IMG/VR virus record: IMGVR_UViG_3300025133_000595
Span: 1-23,892 of that record
Source: a virus
Reading direction: 5' to 3' (one strand)
DNA length: 23,892 nucleotides
Position numbers and translations under genes: made by a program. Shown one piece after another: positions 272 to 17,268 of this stretch (positions are counted from its first letter, which is position 1; the number at the start of each line of letters is the position of its first letter). The notes beneath the pieces are model-generated. The model was not told where the DNA came from. It did not search any database and was given only the letters and a program-made list of their open reading frames with translations.

Positions 272-706
272 TTAATTTTCTTCCGGCGAGTCTTCTATTT
301 TAAAAATCTTTACGACTTCAATAGGATAAGTCTGAAGTTTTTTTCCTTGGGTGAGAAGCATCGTATTGGTGTATTTTTCCCAGTCCAACTTCAGGTGCCG
401 ACCGGTTGCTCCCTCGTGCTCCATCGCTAAGGCCAGGTTGAGAGCGTTGATTGTATAGAGGGTATTGGTCTGCTTCTTGCGGTGCAGGCGCATCGTGTAC
501 AGACGAGGGTTAAAACTTTTCCCCCGTTCAGTCTGAGCATTGTAGGTTAAAATTTTCTTCGATGGGTCGCTAACATTCCGCAATAAGAAAATATAAGGAG
601 CCGTCAAATTAAGATGATCAGCGATAAATTGAACTTCATCGTGAATTTGCTGGTCCTCCTCTGTAGTAAGAAAGGACGCTAACAAAAAACCTTTTCGCTT
701 ATTCAC
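272..706 (-). CDS. Unknown conserved-looking phage protein, 144 aa, GTG start
   Basis: I do not recognise a named family. The start is GTG at 706, preceded by AGGGAGAATTCC, a good ribosome binding site. No in-frame ATG lies nearby, so GTG is the natural choice. The protein is soluble, with no signal peptide or membrane segment. It opens with MNKRKGFLLASFLTTEEDQQ, has a basic centre (RLYTMRLHRKKQTNTLYTIN, about residues 68-87), then a helical stretch ALNLALAMEHEGATG and a lysine-rich strand-like C-terminus ending in DSPEEN. The basic centre could touch nucleic acid, but nothing proves it. It follows the tubulin-like gene after a 66-nt gap that holds a copy of the recurrent promoter motif, and it precedes the gp32-like gene. 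A helper in replication or gene regulation is possible; this is only from position. Confidence 0.8.
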   Translation of the reverse strand: MNKRKGFLLASFLTTEEDQQIHDEVQFIADHLNLTAPYIFLLRNVSDPSKKILTYNAQTERGKSFNPRLYTMRLHRKKQTNTLYTINALNLALAMEHEGATGRHLKLDWEKYTNTMLLTQGKKLQTYPIEVVKIFKIEDSPEEN

Positions 707-772: not shown

Positions 773-1633
773 TCAAGAGTGTTGGGCAAAATCCTGAATT
801 TTATCTGTGTATCCAGCGCACAATACCATTATATTTTCAAATGTAGTTTCGTACACGGAGAAGCTCGCAGAAGCAGTCTCGGTTTTATAACGCTTTACGT
901 GGGATTTGATCTTCTGCATAAGGGAGCCATCCGATTCCATCATCGATGCGGGGATACCATAGAAGAAATGATAGGAGTTGGGCTCGGACAAGGGAAAGAA
1001 GAGTCTTACATCGCCCTGATCCTCCTCAAGCGAAGAGAGTCCAAAAGAACTCATGCGAGACCATGGAGTAGTATCCAAGGAGGTTGAAAGAACGGGGTCC
1101 GTGTGATTATAATAATTCACCATAGCGAACCCATACGCGATAAGGTGGGCTACACTTTTTTCGTACTCCTGTATCGGTACATCACCCACATACGACTCAA
1201 CAGTTGGTCGGTCTACGAGTAATAATTGTTCCAGAATCCCACTTCTGGCATACTCCTGCAACACCTTGAAGGCTATCTTGTCATCTCGTCGTTCGATGTG
1301 TGACATCATGGTACGATCCGGGCAGACATACAGTACATTTAATTTAGCGTGGCTGATAGTTTCTAAAAGACGTAACAACACACCGTTAATAGCCTCTCCG
1401 CCGCCGGTGGCCACCAGAACGTGGTCCCCATCTTTGATGGACCGCAGGTAGATATAAGCCTCTTCTGCGTCAAAATTCTTTTCATATTCTTCCATGTTGT
1501 CACAGGGATCAAGAGCGAGAGTGCCCCGCTCCTTGAGGTGTGTCCCTATCTTATAGATGCGATATTCTGGGTGCTCGGAAAGTTCCTCAGCAAGTCGTAC
1601 CCCCATCTCCCCGAGACCTATCACTTTATCCAT
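773..1633 (-). CDS. FtsZ/tubulin-like protein (putative, degenerate GTPase signature)
   Basis: This 286-aa protein follows the FtsZ/tubulin plan by eye. A first strand and loop VIGLGEMGVRLAEEL (4-18) stand where FtsZ has its glycine-rich T1 loop. HVLVATGGGEAINGVLLRLL (71-90) stands at the T4 signature loop GGGTGTG, with three glycines kept but the T-G-[ST]-G half lost. Then come LNVLYVC (98-104) and RRDDKIAFKVLQEYARSG (115-132), like strand S5 and helix H5 before the ribose-binding turn. Next are LLLVDRP, a long helix like H7, and LDTTPWSRMSSFGLSS, which aligns with the FtsZ T7-loop region (D..D..T.M...G). The strict NxDxxD is not present, so GTP hydrolysis may be changed or absent. The start ATG overlaps the polymerase stop by 8 nt, so the two are likely co-translated. 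A Rossmann-type NAD-binding protein is the main alternative. Confidence 0.55.
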   Translation of the reverse strand: MDKVIGLGEMGVRLAEELSEHPEYRIYKIGTHLKERGTLALDPCDNMEEYEKNFDAEEAYIYLRSIKDGDHVLVATGGGEAINGVLLRLLETISHAKLNVLYVCPDRTMMSHIERRDDKIAFKVLQEYARSGILEQLLLVDRPTVESYVGDVPIQEYEKSVAHLIAYGFAMVNYYNHTDPVLSTSLDTTPWSRMSSFGLSSLEEDQGDVRLFFPLSEPNSYHFFYGIPASMMESDGSLMQKIKSHVKRYKTETASASFSVYETTFENIMVLCAGYTDKIQDFAQHS

Positions 1634-2849
1634 TACTCATCCCTTTCATTTTTCCAAGCGTCTTTCCACTACTCATGTTAATTTTGAAAGACCCAAATCG
1701 TGTAGACGACATTAACTCAACTATAGAATTAATTAGGTGTTCATCCTCCTTTTTGAAATCTAAAACAACTGCATCATGAATAAGGAAAGCAATACGGGTG
1801 CCGGTGCCGTGAGTCCGTAAAAGTTGATCCACTTTAAGAAATTGCAAAAGAGCTAAGTCGGCGGCGGTGGACTGCACTAAATAATTTAAAGCATGATGTT
1901 CAGAAGTATTAGGGATGATCTTGTGGTAGGGAGTAGAGATCTGAGTGCCATCCCAATATTTATCAAGGAGATTATCCTTTTGATAGTAGTCTTCTAATTT
2001 TTTCATTACCTCGGGAGACGCAGCAGTTCGCGAGCCATAGAGCCACGCAAAAAACATAGTTTTGGCTTCCTCTCGGGTGGTGCCCGGAGGAAAGACAGTC
2101 TTTAAGTGGAATTGGTGAATGTCGTCGGGGGGCTGCGGCCTTTCGAGCAATCCGAGAAGGGTACGGATTTCCGCCCCGTTGAAATCGAACTCTAGGTAAT
2201 AATCATTATGAGGAAGAATAGCATCCCGGAAAATCCTATTGAGTGTCAGGATGGGAAACGAACCTTTGGTAGTGGTAAGCCGACCCGTCTTCGTGCCAAA
2301 AAGATCGTAGGACACACAAGACGAGCCCTCTAAAAGTTTGCCACACTGATTATGATACTTGGGATTGGTAGCATATGAAGAGATAAGACGCTTGTCTATG
2401 CGAACAGGGTGCTGGGATATCTCCGATACGAGCATCTGCATTTTTTTATAAAAGTCATAACGGGCAGGCTTGGGCGTGCTCTCAAAAACATGATGGGTTA
2501 TTTTATTCTTTACCTCACACAATTCAACGAGAAAACGGGTAGGCACCAAATCATAAAAACATGTGTCGCTTAAATCTACACGTGCAATATTGAGAGAGCG
2601 TCTAAAAGCCTGTAGGCGACTATAAACATCATCCCAATCGTCCTTAAGGTATTCGGGCAAAACGGATTCTAAGGAGCGCCCCTCTAAATATAAGTTTGCA
2701 TATTCTATGTTGTCATTCCCCCTCAGATACGGAGCATATCTCCATGTCTGAGATAAGTCCGCAGGAAAATGAGCGGGGTCAAAAAGCAGAGTATTGTCGG
2801 CATAAATTCCCACACACTCGTCCTTATCATCTAAGGTCTGAAATATCAT
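1626..2849 (-). CDS. Family A DNA polymerase, short form without exonuclease domain
   Basis: The polymerase core is clear. TKTGRLTT (186-193) is the T-G-R-L motif. FDFNGAEIR (221-229) is motif A, with catalytic D222 and the steric-gate E227. The O helix is complete: R259, K263, F267, Y271-G272 in the spacing R-x3-K-x3-F-x3-YG. N322 and Q326-STAAD match the N-x3-Q-G-T-A-A-D motif of E. coli Pol I, while its preceding Arg is replaced (H318). IHDA (357-360) is motif C, keeping D359 but with Ala for the usual Glu of HDE. Both metal-binding aspartates are present, so activity is plausible. At 407 aa it is far shorter than Klenow or T7 gp5: the first 130 residues show no DEDD exonuclease motifs. 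The gene starts 11 nt after a putative virion gene and has only a weak ribosome binding site (GCGAG). T4-like phages usually use a family B polymerase, so this may be the replicative enzyme of a diverged line or an accessory repair enzyme. Confidence 0.88.
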   Translation of the reverse strand: MIFQTLDDKDECVGIYADNTLLFDPAHFPADLSQTWRYAPYLRGNDNIEYANLYLEGRSLESVLPEYLKDDWDDVYSRLQAFRRSLNIARVDLSDTCFYDLVPTRFLVELCEVKNKITHHVFESTPKPARYDFYKKMQMLVSEISQHPVRIDKRLISSYATNPKYHNQCGKLLEGSSCVSYDLFGTKTGRLTTTKGSFPILTLNRIFRDAILPHNDYYLEFDFNGAEIRTLLGLLERPQPPDDIHQFHLKTVFPPGTTREEAKTMFFAWLYGSRTAASPEVMKKLEDYYQKDNLLDKYWDGTQISTPYHKIIPNTSEHHALNYLVQSTAADLALLQFLKVDQLLRTHGTGTRIAFLIHDAVVLDFKKEDEHLINSIVELMSSTRFGSFKINMSSGKTLGKMKGMSNG

Positions 2850-2860
2850 TGGTCTCGCTT

Positions 2861-4327
2861 TTAGTAGAGATCTGGTATCATTATACCTTCAACGTAGTCT
2901 AATGTTAATGCGGCGGATCGATAGGGTCCTATAAAATTTTCCTGGAGGTATCGGCGGGCTCGATCAAATCGGTCAGACGGCGAAAGCTCATATATATTAA
3001 ACAAACTCTGAAGGCGTGCAGCGTCTTGGGAAGGAGAATAAGTGTGTTGGCGCTCGCGAGCGCGGGAAAGATAAAGAGATTTTAAGAGCCACCGCTCCCC
3101 ATATGTCTTATTGAAGGTGGTGGCATCGGCTGGCTGGCGATGAATTATGGCAGTCTGGGCTCCGCACCGCTGAGCGGTGGGGGAGAAAGTATCCCGCATC
3201 GTAAAGAAGGGCTCAAATTCAACCAGCGCATTATAAAAAGACAATAGATAGGTGGTTAATTCTGCCGGATCTCGGTCCCACACCTCGTTATAGGCGACTG
3301 AAAACAAGATTTCAAATGCTCGTTGCTGGGTGGATCCCCTCACCTCTTGATAGGCTAAGTAGCCAGTGTGAGGTTGGGCGTCTTCCGTAAAATAAACATT
3401 CACATGACGGACTACATCTTCCATGCCGGGTACATTACTGTATCCAAAAGCCCGCGGGCCATTTTCCGGGTCCCCAAAATAAGGCTCACAAGTATCGATA
3501 GGGAGATTGTTGAGTAAAAATCCGTCGGGCTCTATCCCGTACATATACTCCTGCATAGCGGGACTGCGGATATCAGCGATGAAGCGCCAGGGAATATTCT
3601 TATCTACCGCAAACCCATATTGAGCCGCCATGCGCCCGACCATCTCAAAATTTAAATCCTTGAAAATATAACTTTTCGAAAAATCTTCATCATATTTAGC
3701 GTCGGTATTCATTTCGACCATCAGTCCGGTGGACAGTGGACTCACATAACTGCTCTCTAAAAAGCCAGAATAAGTTAAGGGTCCTGCTTGGGATAATAGG
3801 TTCTCTACAAAATCATCAAAGATTTGTAAGAAAGTATCTACCCCCCGAATTTTCTGGGCTCTCCCTGGCGCGCTTAAATACTCGTCATTGAAAGCCGGGT
3901 ACACTACATCAAACATATATTTTTCATATTCCAAAGCCGGAGAAGCCCATCCTTTACCAGCTAAGGGTTGGGACCATGGACTGTTCTCATAGAGTTGCCC
4001 ATTCCTTACGAGGGTCTGGAGGCGCAAGGAAAAATCCGCCCACGCATCTGCCACGAAATCTAAAGCAAAATGGGTGCCACCGTTCCCATACCACAGGGGA
4101 CGAAGGCGGCTTTCTTCTACCGTCACCACATTCCCCTTATGATTTATGGTGCCATAAAAGCGATCAGCGCCCCAGGTATCCATAAAATTAGGCAAAAGAT
4201 TCTCTGGGAATACCACCTTTGCGTAATGCTGCCTTTCTTGGAATATTTCCCGGCTATTATCTCCGTTTTCCCCATACGCGTAAGCCGACGGGTTGTCTTG
4301 GGGGTTGGGCTTATCTTGACGTACCAT
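2861..4327 (-). CDS. Putative virion/baseplate-associated protein, 488 aa, function unknown
   Basis: The protein is soluble and rich in aromatic residues, with no signal peptide or membrane segment. It opens with a low-complexity tail (MVRQDKPNPQDNPSAYAYGE), then HYAKVVFPENLLPNF and WGADRFYGTINHKGNVVTVE. Further on come several F/Y/W-rich stretches such as FLESSYVSPLSTGLMVEM and VNVYFTEDAQPHTGYLAYQE. The last 70 residues are helical and basic. I recall proteins of this style from structural clusters of T4-like aquatic phages, but I cannot name a family. It starts 6 nt after the hub-like gene and runs straight into the polymerase gene, so it is part of the late baseplate transcript. A wedge, spike or fibre-attachment role is possible. 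Confidence 0.75.
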   Translation of the reverse strand: MVRQDKPNPQDNPSAYAYGENGDNSREIFQERQHYAKVVFPENLLPNFMDTWGADRFYGTINHKGNVVTVEESRLRPLWYGNGGTHFALDFVADAWADFSLRLQTLVRNGQLYENSPWSQPLAGKGWASPALEYEKYMFDVVYPAFNDEYLSAPGRAQKIRGVDTFLQIFDDFVENLLSQAGPLTYSGFLESSYVSPLSTGLMVEMNTDAKYDEDFSKSYIFKDLNFEMVGRMAAQYGFAVDKNIPWRFIADIRSPAMQEYMYGIEPDGFLLNNLPIDTCEPYFGDPENGPRAFGYSNVPGMEDVVRHVNVYFTEDAQPHTGYLAYQEVRGSTQQRAFEILFSVAYNEVWDRDPAELTTYLLSFYNALVEFEPFFTMRDTFSPTAQRCGAQTAIIHRQPADATTFNKTYGERWLLKSLYLSRARERQHTYSPSQDAARLQSLFNIYELSPSDRFDRARRYLQENFIGPYRSAALTLDYVEGIMIPDLY

Positions 4328-4333
4328 AATATT

Positions 4334-6895
4334 CTACCCCATTGTCCTCTTTTCAAAGACGCACTCAATTTGAGTAGTGTAACCTTTGGCACTAATATTG
4401 TGTTGAGATTTAACCACGCGATAATATCCCCCCAAAGCCAATACTTCATTACCCATAGCCCCAAGTGCCATGCGACTATCTACATAGATCAAATCACCAT
4501 TCCTATGGATACTGTTGCCAACCATGTCGATGGTGATATTCTGCGGCAAAAATAGAGCACGTGCGGCGGCGGAGGATTGCATACCTGAAGTAGAAGAATA
4601 GTGAGCGGACTCAATATTAAGGGCTTTGAAGTGGGCTTGATCCATTTTCCGGAAATTAAACTTTTTGGCTATCCCACACTCGGCTCCAATAATATAATGA
4701 AAGACGCCATCATCTTCATCCTGCTTTCTATTCCCTTTGCGCGTGGCGTGGTTGACCTGCCGTGCAAATACCACATAATAGTTGTAAATAGGGGCAGCCA
4801 CGTTATCAGTGAGTTGCCTGTTTTTTAAGGCAGTCGGAAAAGACTTGATCATTTCTTCCGTTAAAATATGAATATTCTGATGATCATCAAGCTCCTGCAC
4901 GTCCCAAAAACTACTATAGAGACTCATATCAAAGATAAGGCGCAGGCGATATTCGCTCACCTCGTTCATCAGGCGACCCACCATGCTCATGAGATCATCT
5001 ATGAACCGCTTAAAGGGATAAGTTTTAGCCCCAGTAGCTACTACATTATCATAAAAAAATTGACTTACATATTCTATCGAGATTGGGAGGTTATATAAGG
5101 CCTCGAAGCGGTCGGCAGAAGCACTGCCATACCCTGGAATGCCCAAGTCATATGGAGAGAAACTCCCCAGAATGAGATTCACGTCATGACGCAATTGTGC
5201 TTTCTTCATAGCGGTAGAAATTAAATCTCCCAGGCGCACAAAATAAATGCGGCGCGTTGCATCAGTGGGGGCGTCAGCCCCTTTGGAGATAGTATCAGCC
5301 TGTTCAGGGCTGGACGAGCTATCGACAGTATCATAGGACTTAACCAAGTCTTTGAGTCGGTCTTTCAACTCGGCGCGGCTGTGGGCAAGGGCACTACTCA
5401 CCTCGACAGTTTCGCTTGCCCCAAAAGACTTCGCTGGGTCGGCTTTCACCGTCCCTACAAATACCTTGTGACGATCGATCATCGAGCCCAAAAAACCTTC
5501 TAACCTTTCGGCCATCTGAGCTTTCTGCACTTTGTCGTAGGCGCTTTCAAGGGGGCCCATCCATCTCAATATGTCCTCGTGATTATTGTCGGGATCGGGT
5601 GCGCCTTTATACTTTAACCGTAATAGACTTAACTTGTCCATTAAAATGTCTGTCTCCTCAATAAGCTTGGCGGCGCGAACGGTCGCCAGGGTTTGACCAT
5701 CAGGTCCTTTAACGAGAGGGGTGCCAGACTTCCCTTTGCCTTTGCTTACAATAGATGCGAGGTAGCCGTCAGCCCACACATCCTCAAGATTAATATCATC
5801 TACCGGGATGGAGGTACCCTTGCTTATTAAATCATCTTTTGTATTATGAGACCCGAAGACATCGGAGGTAGGGCTTGTAATATAATTATCGGTACTCCCC
5901 ACATACTGAATACTTAAAGTAGTGGGACCCTCTTGTTGGAAATTAACATTATAATCCACCAGATTTAGCATAATAACCCGCTGCATAACCTGAACCGATT
6001 CCAGAAACCTATTTAGTTTTTGGCGTTTAGTAGCCTGATCTTTCCCGCGGAACAGTTTTATTAATTGTCGCTGACTTCCTTTTGGGACAGCCCACCCCAC
6101 GGTGACTCGGAGTTGGCGAAAGTCATTCTTTAACCCCGCGTTAAAATCGGTACTGGTGGAGACGGCTTTACTGTCGGTGATCGTCTTCATGGCCTCGGCA
6201 ATTTTTGACTCTAAGGCTTTAATACGAGACGCTTCAGTATCGGCTGCCTTACGCGACTCGGCGTCTAAGGGCTTTGCATGAGGAGTCCGCAACCCATTAG
6301 TAAAAAGAAATTTTAAATAGTTGATATTGAGAAGTTCCACCAATGACCCAAAATATAATTCTAAGTTAGCCCCAATGATACGGTCACCTTCGTGCTTATT
6401 ATCATAGTTCCAACTAAAACTCTTGATGCCTACGTTAGATCCGCCAGGGCGGCGGGGTCCAAAAACCTCGTCTAAGGTGCCGGCGTTTCGCCGGGTTTGG
6501 GCCAGGCTGCGTGCAAGGGCGGCGGAGGTGTGATCCCCAAAATAAACTTCTTCTTCGTTGCCTTGGTTATCGCGGATATAGAACCGCATATGAGGTTCTA
6601 AGACCGAGAGCACATTAGGACAAGCATGGACAAACTCGCCGGCGATCGGTGGATTGACCAAAGTAGAGACGAGGACATCGGGGTCCTCGGTATAAGGATA
6701 AAGTCCGTTTATGAGTGTATCCGCACGTGAATCATCAAACCCCTGAAGGGAGGTGGTCAAGCCATCGTCGCGGGCGTAGTGTGCGGCATCCAACACCACA
6801 CTGGTATGACTCACAATCTTGTACAAGTTCTTCAACAATAACAGTTGGCTGGGCTTGGGAGATCTTGACTGCGCTTTACCTGTGGGTCGAGCCAT
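4334..6895 (-). CDS. Large baseplate protein, probable hub component (853 aa)
   Basis: Its position between the gp53-like gene and another structural gene, and its size, point to the baseplate. About residues 155-190 contain KSFSWNYDNKHEGDRIIGAN followed by a strand-rich run (LELYFGSL), a layout I associate with hub-type proteins (T4 gp27, phage P2 gpD). The last 65 residues hold IHRNGDLIYVDS, a glycine/alanine-rich turn, then LGGYYRVVKSQHNISAKGYT and TTQIECVFEKR. This strand pattern (short beta barrel ending G-G-Y-Y-x-V, then S.G..T.L) is typical of the C-terminal part of hub proteins. The middle (about 215-245 and 475-560) is helical and charged. It begins directly at the stop codon of the previous gene (TAGATG). 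T4 gp27 has 391 aa, so this is over twice as long, and fusion of hub and another module is likely. The exact role is inferred. Confidence 0.62.
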   Translation of the reverse strand: MARPTGKAQSRSPKPSQLLLLKNLYKIVSHTSVVLDAAHYARDDGLTTSLQGFDDSRADTLINGLYPYTEDPDVLVSTLVNPPIAGEFVHACPNVLSVLEPHMRFYIRDNQGNEEEVYFGDHTSAALARSLAQTRRNAGTLDEVFGPRRPGGSNVGIKSFSWNYDNKHEGDRIIGANLELYFGSLVELLNINYLKFLFTNGLRTPHAKPLDAESRKAADTEASRIKALESKIAEAMKTITDSKAVSTSTDFNAGLKNDFRQLRVTVGWAVPKGSQRQLIKLFRGKDQATKRQKLNRFLESVQVMQRVIMLNLVDYNVNFQQEGPTTLSIQYVGSTDNYITSPTSDVFGSHNTKDDLISKGTSIPVDDINLEDVWADGYLASIVSKGKGKSGTPLVKGPDGQTLATVRAAKLIEETDILMDKLSLLRLKYKGAPDPDNNHEDILRWMGPLESAYDKVQKAQMAERLEGFLGSMIDRHKVFVGTVKADPAKSFGASETVEVSSALAHSRAELKDRLKDLVKSYDTVDSSSSPEQADTISKGADAPTDATRRIYFVRLGDLISTAMKKAQLRHDVNLILGSFSPYDLGIPGYGSASADRFEALYNLPISIEYVSQFFYDNVVATGAKTYPFKRFIDDLMSMVGRLMNEVSEYRLRLIFDMSLYSSFWDVQELDDHQNIHILTEEMIKSFPTALKNRQLTDNVAAPIYNYYVVFARQVNHATRKGNRKQDEDDGVFHYIIGAECGIAKKFNFRKMDQAHFKALNIESAHYSSTSGMQSSAAARALFLPQNITIDMVGNSIHRNGDLIYVDSRMALGAMGNEVLALGGYYRVVKSQHNISAKGYTTQIECVFEKRTMG

Positions 6896-14262: not shown

Positions 14263-17200
14263 TTAATCCTCGAAAGCGGCTCCGCTATTTGTAACTACAA
14301 AGTCGATGGCGAAGAACTCAACAGCACGTGTCGGCTTAACAAGCAACTTAGCGTAGATTATGTTCCGGTCAATCAAGTCCGGAGTGGTGGTGGCATCATC
14401 CAACACAAGTCGGAAGTCTTCGATGCCGTATTCAGCTTTGACACTCTCCAGCAATGGAGATGCCTGCCCTAAGAACCTGTCCCAAGTGTCTTGAGTGTTA
14501 GGACTAAAGAGCAGTCGCGAAGCGATGAATGAGATCTCGCGCTTGAGATAAATCATCAGGCGTCGGACATTGATACGGTCCAGAGCAGTTGCAGTTTGTT
14601 GCAAGGTTTTCTGTCCGAAGATTACAATACCTTCGGCCGGGAACTTGGCGATGGGATTAATATTTGTTTCATACAACGAATCTCTCTGGTCTGACGACAA
14701 GCGTTGAGAGACATCCAGCACCGGCAAGCCGGCAGCGCCTTCACTCAAGCCACCGCGGGTGAACCCAGCAGGCGCAAACCAAGGAGCTTGAAGCCTATCC
14801 GTACTGGAAAGGACTCCCAAAGCTGCAACGCTCGGAGGTGCCCAGAGGCTCTGGTTAGTATTCGTATCCAAGATACGCACCCATGGATAATACGTTGCGC
14901 CATAACTGTTGTTAATGGAGCGTTGTTGCATTGTGTTCACAGCCGCGGCTGGAGTGTTTGCTTCATTAGCAGCATATTGCCCCAGGTTGGTTTCCGTATC
15001 AGGTGTGTACGCATCTTCGATATCCACGATTCCCAAGACATCGGCACGCTCTTCGGCTATTTCCAGCAGATAGTCAGTGACCGTAGCCTTGGTAACGCCC
15101 GGAATAGTGAGAGCATTGCCCTGCACATAGTCCGGATCGGAAACAATGTTAAGCGCCTTACGCAAGGAGAATAGCTCATAAGAAGCTTTTTCATCCGTTG
15201 TCGAAATGGCACTGTTGCGGAAGGGTTCGCGTTCGGTAATATTATATCCGCTCGTCCCACCATGCAAGAGCACGTTAAAGCGATCAACACCTGCCGCCAG
15301 TACCGTCTTGTAGGACGATCCCGAAGGAGCCGACAAACTGGTTCCCGACCGTCGTTGTCCGGCAGCAAAGGTATAACCGTCCGCGGCAGAGCCGGAGACG
15401 TCATCGAGTGAGAAGACCCACGAGGTAACAATGGCGCTGCTGCCCATGCTGGCGCTCGTCTGTCCTTGGATATCATAAGTAGTAGCGGCTGGATTGGCAC
15501 TTTCTCCGCTGCTTTGCACATCGAATGATCGGGCGCGCAGAAGATCCGGCAACTGGCTGCTATAAAAAGTCTCATTAGCTGCGCGACCGGTCCATGCACC
15601 CCAGTAGCAATTGCGCAGGGAACGCGGCGTACCCCATGTACTAAGCTGCCGCAGAGGAACTGTGGGGAAAGTAATAGAGCCGCTAAATCCGGTGGCGTCG
15701 TCTGTTTCTAAGATGTCGGACGAGGCAAAGGAATGACCCGCCAGACCAAATGTGACTGACGATCCGCCTGCAAGCATGGTGTTGACTGCGGCAAGAACAC
15801 CGGAGACTGGAGTGGAGACTGACTCCGACCAGCCCGATGATCCAGAGACCACACCGACATCACGGTATTTAGGAGGACCCCACATACCGAAAGGCAACCA
15901 GCGCGGCTCGCCTGAGCCGGCTTCCACATCCTCGTCCATCACTACGCGGACATAGTTGGACTGATTAGCGTATTGACCGTATTCTACGTTGCGAAGATTG
16001 GTCTTATCATAGCGTTGATAGCGATCGCCGATTTGCTTCGCAATATAATCAGCAGACGCGGGGTTAAGATTAAGGTTATCAAAACGCTCGATGACCTGTG
16101 GGGATGTATCGCTATCGCCCAATCGTCTTACAAGAATAGAGAAGGAGCCATAAGATTGGTAGTCTCCTTCTGGTGCTTTAATGTTCGAGACAGATATCTT
16201 AACCTGACGTTGTACACTTTCGCCGGCGGTCAAAGCCTCCAGGCGGAAAAGTTTCTGCATCTCACTGGCGTAATATGAAGTGTTATTATTGCTCAGATCT
16301 TGCGAGATAAACCAGCCGGTGCTGCCGCGAATAGCTGCACCTTCAAAGTCATTTTGTTGAGAGGTGAAACTTCCGGTGGGAACTGCCATGGGGAACAAGG
16401 CAGCGTGAAGCTTTCCAGAAGTAATATCGGCGGACAAAACCCCAATAGAGTTTGTCCCTTGTGCGCTCAGAGATCTCTCGAAGGACTCTCCGAGAAAATA
16501 CTTTCCACCCTGGTAATAGTCCTGCGTTGCCGCTGTAGTAATAGCAGCATTTGTAATCGTCGGATTCGTGTTGAGAACCTTCCGGATAAAGTTTTCGCTC
16601 TCTGGGTTTAGACTGACGGTGGCTTTCTTAGAAAGATTACTTCCCGTAAAATGGAGAGTAAAGCTATCAATGTTCGGAACTTCTATAAGTGTAGATCCGT
16701 TTTCTCCCGTAGCTGCAACCGCTCCGCCAACCGCCAAGGTTCCCGACAGAAGGGCGCGACCTTGATCCACATAAATTTGAGCCGCCACAGCGCCGCCCAC
16801 GAGGGTCGGTGCCTTAGTGCTAATACTGCCTGAGGGCCAAACGACGAGGGCATAAACCCCACCCGAGTCAGCGCCTTCATCAGTGGCTCCTGCTGTGCCC
16901 ACTTTCCAGCCGGCTTTGCCAGCGGTTGTTGCTTGATCAGATTCGTCGCCGAGAACTCGCATGAAGGTAACGGGTCCGTTATTGGTCAACCACGCCTTAG
17001 CCGCAAAAGGGGCATAAGTGGGGGCGCTGTCATCGCCGATGCGCCAGACATCCCCAGACTTGCCGCCGGGAACAGGGTTCCCAAACGTTTGCACAAAGTC
17101 GGAAAACGAACTCACTGTGACAGGGATATTCGCCGGTCCTTTAGCAGCCCGTCCAATAACAATCGGTCCAACGGCGGTAGGGAGATCAGGCAACTGAGAG

Positions 17201-17268
17201 TTGTCAATCTCCTCCACAAACACACCGGGGGAAATAAACTTAAATCTTCTTGAAGAGTTATCAGCCAT
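14263..17268 (-). CDS. Tail sheath protein (gp18-like), enlarged
   Basis: It forms the contractile outer sheath. The N-terminus FKFISPGVFVEEIDNSQLPD and VGPIVIGRAAKGPANIPVTV (about 9-52) is the classic sheath start: F-x-S-P-G-V-x-x-x-E-x-D and G-x-x-x-x-G-P-x-x-x-P-V. The C-terminal 150 residues carry the conserved sheath core: INPIAKFPAEGIVIFGQKTL, then LDRINVRRLMIYLKREIS, and the ending strand VEFFAIDFVVTNSGAAFED. At 1001 aa it is about half again as long as T4 gp18 (659 aa). The extra length is in the middle (roughly 120-600), rich in Ser, Gly and Thr, which suggests additional surface domains. The start ATG at 17268 has AGAGGAG 10-11 nt upstream, and the promoter motif lies 63 nt upstream. 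The next gene downstream is the tube. Confidence 0.93.
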   Translation of the reverse strand: MADNSSRRFKFISPGVFVEEIDNSQLPDLPTAVGPIVIGRAAKGPANIPVTVSSFSDFVQTFGNPVPGGKSGDVWRIGDDSAPTYAPFAAKAWLTNNGPVTFMRVLGDESDQATTAGKAGWKVGTAGATDEGADSGGVYALVVWPSGSISTKAPTLVGGAVAAQIYVDQGRALLSGTLAVGGAVAATGENGSTLIEVPNIDSFTLHFTGSNLSKKATVSLNPESENFIRKVLNTNPTITNAAITTAATQDYYQGGKYFLGESFERSLSAQGTNSIGVLSADITSGKLHAALFPMAVPTGSFTSQQNDFEGAAIRGSTGWFISQDLSNNNTSYYASEMQKLFRLEALTAGESVQRQVKISVSNIKAPEGDYQSYGSFSILVRRLGDSDTSPQVIERFDNLNLNPASADYIAKQIGDRYQRYDKTNLRNVEYGQYANQSNYVRVVMDEDVEAGSGEPRWLPFGMWGPPKYRDVGVVSGSSGWSESVSTPVSGVLAAVNTMLAGGSSVTFGLAGHSFASSDILETDDATGFSGSITFPTVPLRQLSTWGTPRSLRNCYWGAWTGRAANETFYSSQLPDLLRARSFDVQSSGESANPAATTYDIQGQTSASMGSSAIVTSWVFSLDDVSGSAADGYTFAAGQRRSGTSLSAPSGSSYKTVLAAGVDRFNVLLHGGTSGYNITEREPFRNSAISTTDEKASYELFSLRKALNIVSDPDYVQGNALTIPGVTKATVTDYLLEIAEERADVLGIVDIEDAYTPDTETNLGQYAANEANTPAAAVNTMQQRSINNSYGATYYPWVRILDTNTNQSLWAPPSVAALGVLSSTDRLQAPWFAPAGFTRGGLSEGAAGLPVLDVSQRLSSDQRDSLYETNINPIAKFPAEGIVIFGQKTLQQTATALDRINVRRLMIYLKREISFIASRLLFSPNTQDTWDRFLGQASPLLESVKAEYGIEDFRLVLDDATTTPDLIDRNIIYAKLLVKPTRAVEFFAIDFVVTNSGAAFED

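Follow-up and report, generated by a model that had tools for sequence, protein, structure and literature searches.

Does the gene at positions 773 to 1,633 of this DNA code for a protein of the tubulin superfamily, and if so, what could such a protein do beside a phage DNA polymerase? The analysed stretch, hereafter the window, is the 23,892-nucleotide IMG/VR virus record IMGVR_UViG_3300025133_000595. The gene lies on the minus strand (773..1633), codes for 286 aa and is referred to here as the compact tubulin; it was assigned from its ORF, fold, family, and codon-position bias. An earlier sequence-only reading had listed FtsZ/tubulin-like blocks in this frame, and all of them (GLGEMG, ATGGGEAING, RRDDKIAFKVL, the long helix, and LDTTPWSRMSSFG) were found in the minus-strand ORF. 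The ORF is a real gene, with a codon-position bias and homologs in the same slot of many phages. Compared with its 78%-identical relative L001, codon positions 1, 2, and 3 differed by 18%, 10%, and 60%, respectively (dS was saturated in this comparison), and the far greater divergence of the third positions than of the first and second indicates a protein under selection.

Structure prediction with AlphaFold2 on a 19-row alignment gave a model with a pLDDT of 89.4 and a pTM of 0.89, in which the order of elements is that of tubulin (S1-H1-S2-S3-(H2/H3)-S4-H4-S5-H5-S6-H6-H7-S7-S8-H10-S9-S10); the FtsZ/tubulin-like arrangement of the blocks did not arise by chance. Foldseek returned 358 PDB matches at E up to 0.001, and all 50 that were listed were FtsZ or TubZ, the best listed being FtsZ (E 2.9e-13; TM about 0.70, 12-15% identity). 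VIA-align gave Z scores of 24.7 for CetZ (264 residues, 3.3 A), 23.7 for TubZ (282 residues), and 22.9 for FtsZ. Among predicted viral proteins, the best match was a 452-aa "FtsZ" of an uncultured Caudovirales phage (E 3e-13), and the weaker matches below it included other phage tubulins. The claimed membership in the tubulin superfamily was thus borne out by a model that matches FtsZ, TubZ, and CetZ over its full length and has the two-domain tubulin fold. Two helices are missing from the model: none was found between H7 (residues 154-176) and S7 (residue 194), which is the place of H8, and none between S7 and S8, which is the place of H9.

By sequence, the compact tubulin of the window gave only sub-threshold noise against Pfam, PHROGs, and PDB, and it had no match to PF00091 or PF22453 (TubZ-like_C) at E up to 1. 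A first search of IMG/VR found one close relative (78%). With the two-sequence alignment as the query, 12 compact loci at 32-78% identity were obtained, and with the upstream DNA polymerase as the query, 9 further contigs, all nine having a compact homolog directly after the polymerase. The 19-row alignment as the query showed that at least 585 of 599 candidate IMG/VR stretches encode compact relatives, the best 80 of which were retained. Four different compact members had no tblastn match at E up to 1 in 50,697 phage records, and genome contigs gave no confirmed relative (4 pattern stretches, one pattern only), so that neither a cellular source nor a link to a host emerged. Weak PF00091 matches were seen in 4 of 50 compact members (best E 0.019). 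The compact tubulins are a large virus-only family without helices H8 and H9, and single members go unrecognised when standard libraries are searched by profile.

In the 178.6-kb contig G002, the compact profile matched a second tubulin of 377 aa (counted from GTG) with the canonical motifs GAGQGGG, GVSGGSGGG, VDNEK, and FDATDYDSIM. This canonical tubulin scored above the Pfam thresholds of both PF00091 (37.2 bits, cut-off 33) and TubZ-like_C (31.8, cut-off 26). Its model (pLDDT 69, lower confidence) was closest to TubZ (best Foldseek E 3e-18) and has helices at both the H8 and the H9 places. IMG/VR contained 94 relatives of it among 97 pattern stretches (exact 8-mers), and its sole INPHARED match was Bacillus phage G gp138 (21.8% identity, E 3e-7). 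The gp138 gene (L222:3031-4161) is annotated as putative FtsZ-like.

In hhalign comparisons, the 50-member compact profile matched that of the canonical phage tubulin (96.2%, E 2.7e-9), and the canonical profile matched FtsZ (99.1%, E 6e-19); controls with an unrelated polymerase alignment gave 0.8% and 0.1%. Also, the canonical profile picked up the compact gene in 9 contigs (E 4e-7 to 1.3e-4). Direct comparison of the compact profile with the FtsZ profile was not significant (1.1%), though the register was as expected, and neither was direct hhalign comparison with E. coli FtsZ. Direct FtsZ and PhuZ comparisons were not significant; the sequence link from the compact tubulin to FtsZ runs via the canonical phage tubulin. 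Structure prediction and the profile chain together make a fold of the tubulin/FtsZ superfamily almost certain for this protein.

The nucleotide pocket was read in the register of the hhalign alignments, with the residue roles of FtsZ, including the guanine-contact Asn in T6 and H7. All pocket segments lie on the minus strand. The T1 loop (residues 6-13, GLGEMGVR, 1595..1618; alignment column counts and hhalign) has V and R in place of the C and N of the FtsZ-like GxGxxGCN of relatives. The T4 loop (residues 77-84, GGGEAING, 1382..1405; hhalign and column counts) is degenerate compared with GGGTGTG, E80 being the equivalent of the third G, and the G-box GGGTG(S/T)G is absent from it. Column counts place R142 at the T6 position (1208..1210), and the model and column counts place A162 of helix H7 (residues 154-176, 1106..1174) at the guanine-contact Asn position. 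The T7-equivalent segment (residues 187-193, DTTPWSR, 1055..1075; model and column counts), with P190, has no NxDxxD and no helix H8 after it, so that both the catalytic T7 loop NxDxxD/E and H8 are absent from this protein. At the end of H5 (residues 126-132, QEYARSG, 1238..1258), Q126, A129, R130, and S131 were invariant among the compact tubulins in the 50-row alignment.

The same 50 rows were split at 42% identity to the compact tubulin of the window into 9 window-clade members and 41 outside, the latter termed the sister clade. The T6 Asn (position 142) was present in 0 of 9 window-clade against 35 of 41 sister-clade members, the H7 Asn (position 162) in 1 of 9 against 37 of 41, and the third G of T4 in 0 of 9 (D in 4, E in 3, A in 1, and S in 1) against 32 of 41. 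A T7-like acid at residue 190 was found in 3 of 9 and 29 of 41, respectively, and most sister-clade members kept the GxGxx(S/T)G loop. A separate 88-row tree recovered the window clade as a single group of 22 rows (100/100 support), and therefore the contrast between the clades counts as one evolutionary event and not as many independent ones; branching inside the clade was mostly unresolved in the quick tree. With the pocket asparagines and T7/H8 lost and an acid mostly in the phosphate loop, GTP hydrolysis or tight binding is very improbable, and the compact tubulin of the window has very probably lost its GTPase and become a pseudo-GTPase. The compact proteins of the sister clade probably still bind nucleotide, as their kept residues suggest.

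A total of 26 canonical-gene contigs (G002, G012, G013, G015, and 22 from 80 canonical-gene loci, chosen mainly by length) were checked for the compact gene, and 15 of them contained both genes. In 14 of the 15, the two genes are on the same strand, with the canonical gene about 30 kb (about 29-34 kb) 5' of the compact gene; the spacing in G015 is about 22 kb and its second tubulin is divergent. The latter (L221:3688-4746) is about 30% identical to the canonical tubulin and carries GGGGGTGSS and SFDSKDL. The other 11 contigs had the canonical gene only: 10 end before the expected place of the compact gene (G036 only just), and G045, with a divergent canonical copy, had no compact gene despite 69 kb of room downstream. 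The canonical gene lies near the terminase and portal genes in G002 and about 30 kb upstream of the compact gene in window-clade relatives, and it was present in all four window-clade contigs that were reached via the compact gene and were long enough (the contigs of L026, L027, L028, and L035). The window itself ends about 8 kb before the place expected from G002 synteny, so the partner of its compact tubulin is extrapolated from relatives.

Across the 14 two-tubulin genomes, GAGQGGG, GVSGGSGGG, and VDNEK were kept by every canonical partner and FDATDYDSIM by 13. In all 14, residue 80 of the compact protein was acidic (D or E), and neither position 142 nor position 162 carried Asn; together with GGGEAING in the T4 loop of the window protein, this supports the degenerate GTP-binding signature proposed from the sequence. 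Mean identity was 93% (89.5-100%) for the canonical protein, a value partly biased by the gathering of its copies through exact 8-mers, against 56% (38-100%) for the compact protein; in contigs reached via the compact gene, identity to G002 was about 92% and 66-71%, respectively. Two generalisations were rejected. Two-tubulin phages are not universal: six sister-clade contigs of 148-190 kb (G003-G008) had no second tubulin by the A6 profile or PF00091, and the cultured Far-T4 relatives Mel-JY01, immuto, and RM378 had neither the compact nor the canonical tubulin at the sensitivity used. Pocket loss does not always accompany a second tubulin, the exception being G015, a sister-clade genome with two tubulins whose compact protein keeps the full pocket.

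A family-A DNA polymerase gene (PolA, 407 aa, 1626..2849, minus strand) lies directly upstream of the compact tubulin in the window, and its stop overlaps the compact start by 8 bases. Among the 91 compact loci whose contigs extend far enough upstream, 87 had PolA directly upstream (within 1.1 kb), in most cases with an overlap or a gap of no more than a few hundred bases; it was a few kb upstream in three of the remaining four and was not detected in one. Only the polymerase part of the 407-aa protein is matched by phrog_17 (profile 964-1210 of 1445); in G002, a separate gene encodes the 5'-3' exonuclease. Upstream of PolA, the genes at 2861-4327 and 4334-6895 (minus strand; 488 aa and 853 aa) are kept in many relatives and had no significant Pfam or PHROG family. 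Downstream of the compact tubulin lies a 144-aa gene (272..706, minus strand), whose homolog in Flavobacterium phage immuto (gp002, E 1.2e-25) directly adjoins PolA. The order in immuto is PolA, the 144-aa homolog, one small gene, SSB, recombinase, exonuclease, and helicase with no tubulin. This phage is an empty site for the compact tubulin, having the same cluster in the same order with the gene missing.

Contig G002 is collinear with the window, as 19 of 19 compared window genes were found along one stretch, with one neighbour pair falling in the same place. Its cluster comprises ribonucleotide reductase, DnaB helicase, 5'-3' exonuclease, UvsX, SSB, the 144-aa gene, the compact tubulin, and PolA. 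In the window, the compact gene stands where the replication cluster meets the baseplate genes. The G002 ribonucleotide reductase (L109:371-2242), near the compact gene, carries a B12-type insertion domain. The tail sheath of the window (14263-17268, minus strand) has 1001 aa, and its best piece against the G002 sheath covers only 475 residues at 72% identity, so a large part of the sheath is variable or inserted.

The phage had been described as T4-like. The capsid is of the gp23 type (phrog_138), and the best-ranked tblastn matches, which include Mel-JY01, immuto, RM378, and two uncultured huge phages, point to the Far-T4 group and not to T4-like phages proper. Microcystis phage Mel-JY01, the top-ranked capsid relative, has an annotated ribosomal protein S21 gene (L116:146-373). 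Sections of PMC13037479 assign 113 of 235 predicted hosts of a Far-T4-like cluster to Flavobacteriales, and this order is a lead for the host of the phage studied here.

The best explanation of these results as a whole, which we place just short of an even chance, is that the compact protein is a non-hydrolysing partner or adaptor of the canonical filament that ties replication to positioning or packaging. The partnership of the two tubulins, taken by itself, is suggested tentatively and is somewhat doubtful. Counting against it are G015, in which the compact protein retains its whole pocket beside a second tubulin, and G045, in which a divergent canonical copy occurs with ample room but no compact gene. 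The compact protein would be produced from the replication cluster beside PolA, SSB, and UvsX, would act without nucleotide as a partner, cap, or adaptor for the canonical TubZ-type GTPase, and may connect the TubZ filament with replisomes or with phage DNA under replication; through such a bridge, DNA could be positioned or capsids could be brought to the DNA. In the sister clade, mostly with no second tubulin detected and with the pocket kept, the compact protein would probably bind nucleotide and work alone.

Several other readings were weighed against the partner role; the sequence-only reading had put forward the organisation of replication or assembly sites, or interference with host FtsZ, as possible roles. 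The compact protein might instead polymerise by itself, perhaps with weak or no use of nucleotide, and position DNA or capsids independently of a second tubulin, as PhuZ or TubZ would. The sister clade speaks for such a filament, for it mostly keeps the T1, T4, T6, and H7 residues, often with the T7-like acid, and includes the six long contigs without a second tubulin; residues are also invariant at both ends of the GTPase domain (the T1 glycines and the end of H5). In known tubulins, T7 and H8 form the longitudinal contact. Both are missing here, the pocket is lost in the window clade, and the canonical copy of related phages is the better filament candidate, which makes an independent filament unlikely. 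There is a small chance that the protein is directed at the host, mimicking FtsZ and capping or poisoning host FtsZ filaments so that division halts. Its fold is closest to FtsZ, TubZ, and CetZ, and its fast divergence would suit a host-facing protein; the identity contrast with the canonical tubulin could alternatively reflect a fast-changing host target. However, the strict PolA linkage and very wide conservation would be unusual for a small host-takeover gene, and its nearest sequence relative is a phage tubulin and not FtsZ.

The overlap with PolA and the nearby SSB, UvsX, exonuclease, and helicase genes of the collinear relative, together with the immuto cluster that lacks only the compact gene, fit a replisome accessory with a borrowed tubulin fold, in which a monomer or small oligomer would scaffold PolA or SSB and play no part in a cytoskeleton. 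Binding does not follow from gene order by itself, a full two-domain tubulin fold would be an odd scaffold, and the co-occurring TubZ would be left unexplained, so the chance of this reading is slim. That the protein is no tubulin at all, being a Rossmann NAD(P)-binding protein with an FtsZ-like layout by chance, is extremely improbable. Short single-domain HMM matches to the NAD-binding family TrkA_N were seen in 12 of 50 compact members (best E 4e-4, sub-threshold), and these were attributed to the GxGxxG turn. Against them stand the whole-length match to two-domain tubulins (Z 21-25 over 263-283 residues) and the profile link of the compact family to a Pfam-recognised tubulin; no Rossmann dehydrogenase, which the sequence-only reading had named as the contrary outcome, was among the 50 listed Foldseek PDB matches or the 50 listed VIA-align matches, which are chains of the tubulin superfamily.

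Many uncultured Far-T4 phages of marine origin are thus seen to carry a tubulin-fold protein, and the pairing of compact and canonical genes in relatives could point to a viral cytoskeleton of two parts in phages other than the known giant nucleus formers. Extended to this widespread group, the partner role becomes a more speculative proposal, to which we give roughly a one-in-three standing: a highly conserved TubZ-type GTPase encoded beside the packaging genes and a compact pseudo-tubulin, encoded in the replication cluster and having given up nucleotide binding in exchange for a structural or adaptor role, would form a two-component cytoskeleton coupling replication to positioning or packaging, and the sister clade would represent the ancestral state of a single nucleotide-binding tubulin. 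The lineage would then preserve the passage from a tubulin to a pseudo-GTPase subunit, and the viral system would pair one active and one degenerate tubulin. The two clades would then offer a natural series (pocket kept against pocket lost) on what a tubulin does after giving up GTP, and the phages a testable case of spatial organisation of replication and packaging without the known nuclear shell.

With regard to published work, no compact or paired phage tubulin was recognised among the listed open-access PMC papers, and a full-text search there found none that contains both "Far-T4" and "tubulin"; reports elsewhere are possible. The main texts of three Far-T4 papers (PMC4360716, PMC7198788, and PMC13037479) have no mention of tubulin or FtsZ. 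Parts of PMC11835377 report tubulin as distinguishing Chimalliviridae, plus a handful of other large phages, and PMC11724907 and PMC10299810 describe PhuZ as positioning and rotating the phage nucleus and helping capsid migration, yet call it non-essential in nucleus-forming phages. PhuZ of phiKZ (gp39) is a phage-encoded tubulin fold, as is the compact protein, and its gene likewise has a DNA polymerase gene nearby, at a distance of no more than about 10 kb. By profile, it gave 0.6% over 28 columns with hhalign (single-sequence target). Unlike the PhuZ jumbo phages, the compact-gene contigs are of the Far-T4 type and reach about 190 kb. Chimallin (phiKZ gp54 as a single-sequence query of low sensitivity) matched in 0 of 9 large contigs and in phiKZ alone, which argues weakly against a known phage nucleus.

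TubZ of Bacillus plasmid or phage partition (PDB 4ei7 and 2xka) shares the full-length fold with the compact protein, and the canonical partner, to which the compact family is closest by profile, is the one that passes TubZ-like_C and PF00091. The compact protein falls about 100 aa short of TubZ in length and has neither H8 nor H9, and GGGTGTG, the acids of T7, and the asparagines of the pocket are missing as well; its gene adjoins PolA, with no partition-type neighbour recognised. Bacillus phage G gp138 is a relative of the canonical partner and not of the compact protein. FtsZ and CetZ gave the best Foldseek (FtsZ, E 3e-13) and the best VIA-align (CetZ, Z 24.7) matches of the compact model, and the sister clade shares with them a GxGxxGCN-like T1 and the T6 Asn, whereas the compact protein differs from them in its 12-16% identity, degenerate T4, and missing T7/H8. 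Heteromeric tubulins are represented by alpha/beta-tubulin, BtubA/B, and archaeal or plastid FtsZ1/FtsZ2. In contrast to these, little of the pocket and nothing of H8/H9 is left in the compact subunit, whose partnership is putative; if the partnership holds, the phages would likewise combine, within one system, two tubulin paralogs that differ in catalytic status.
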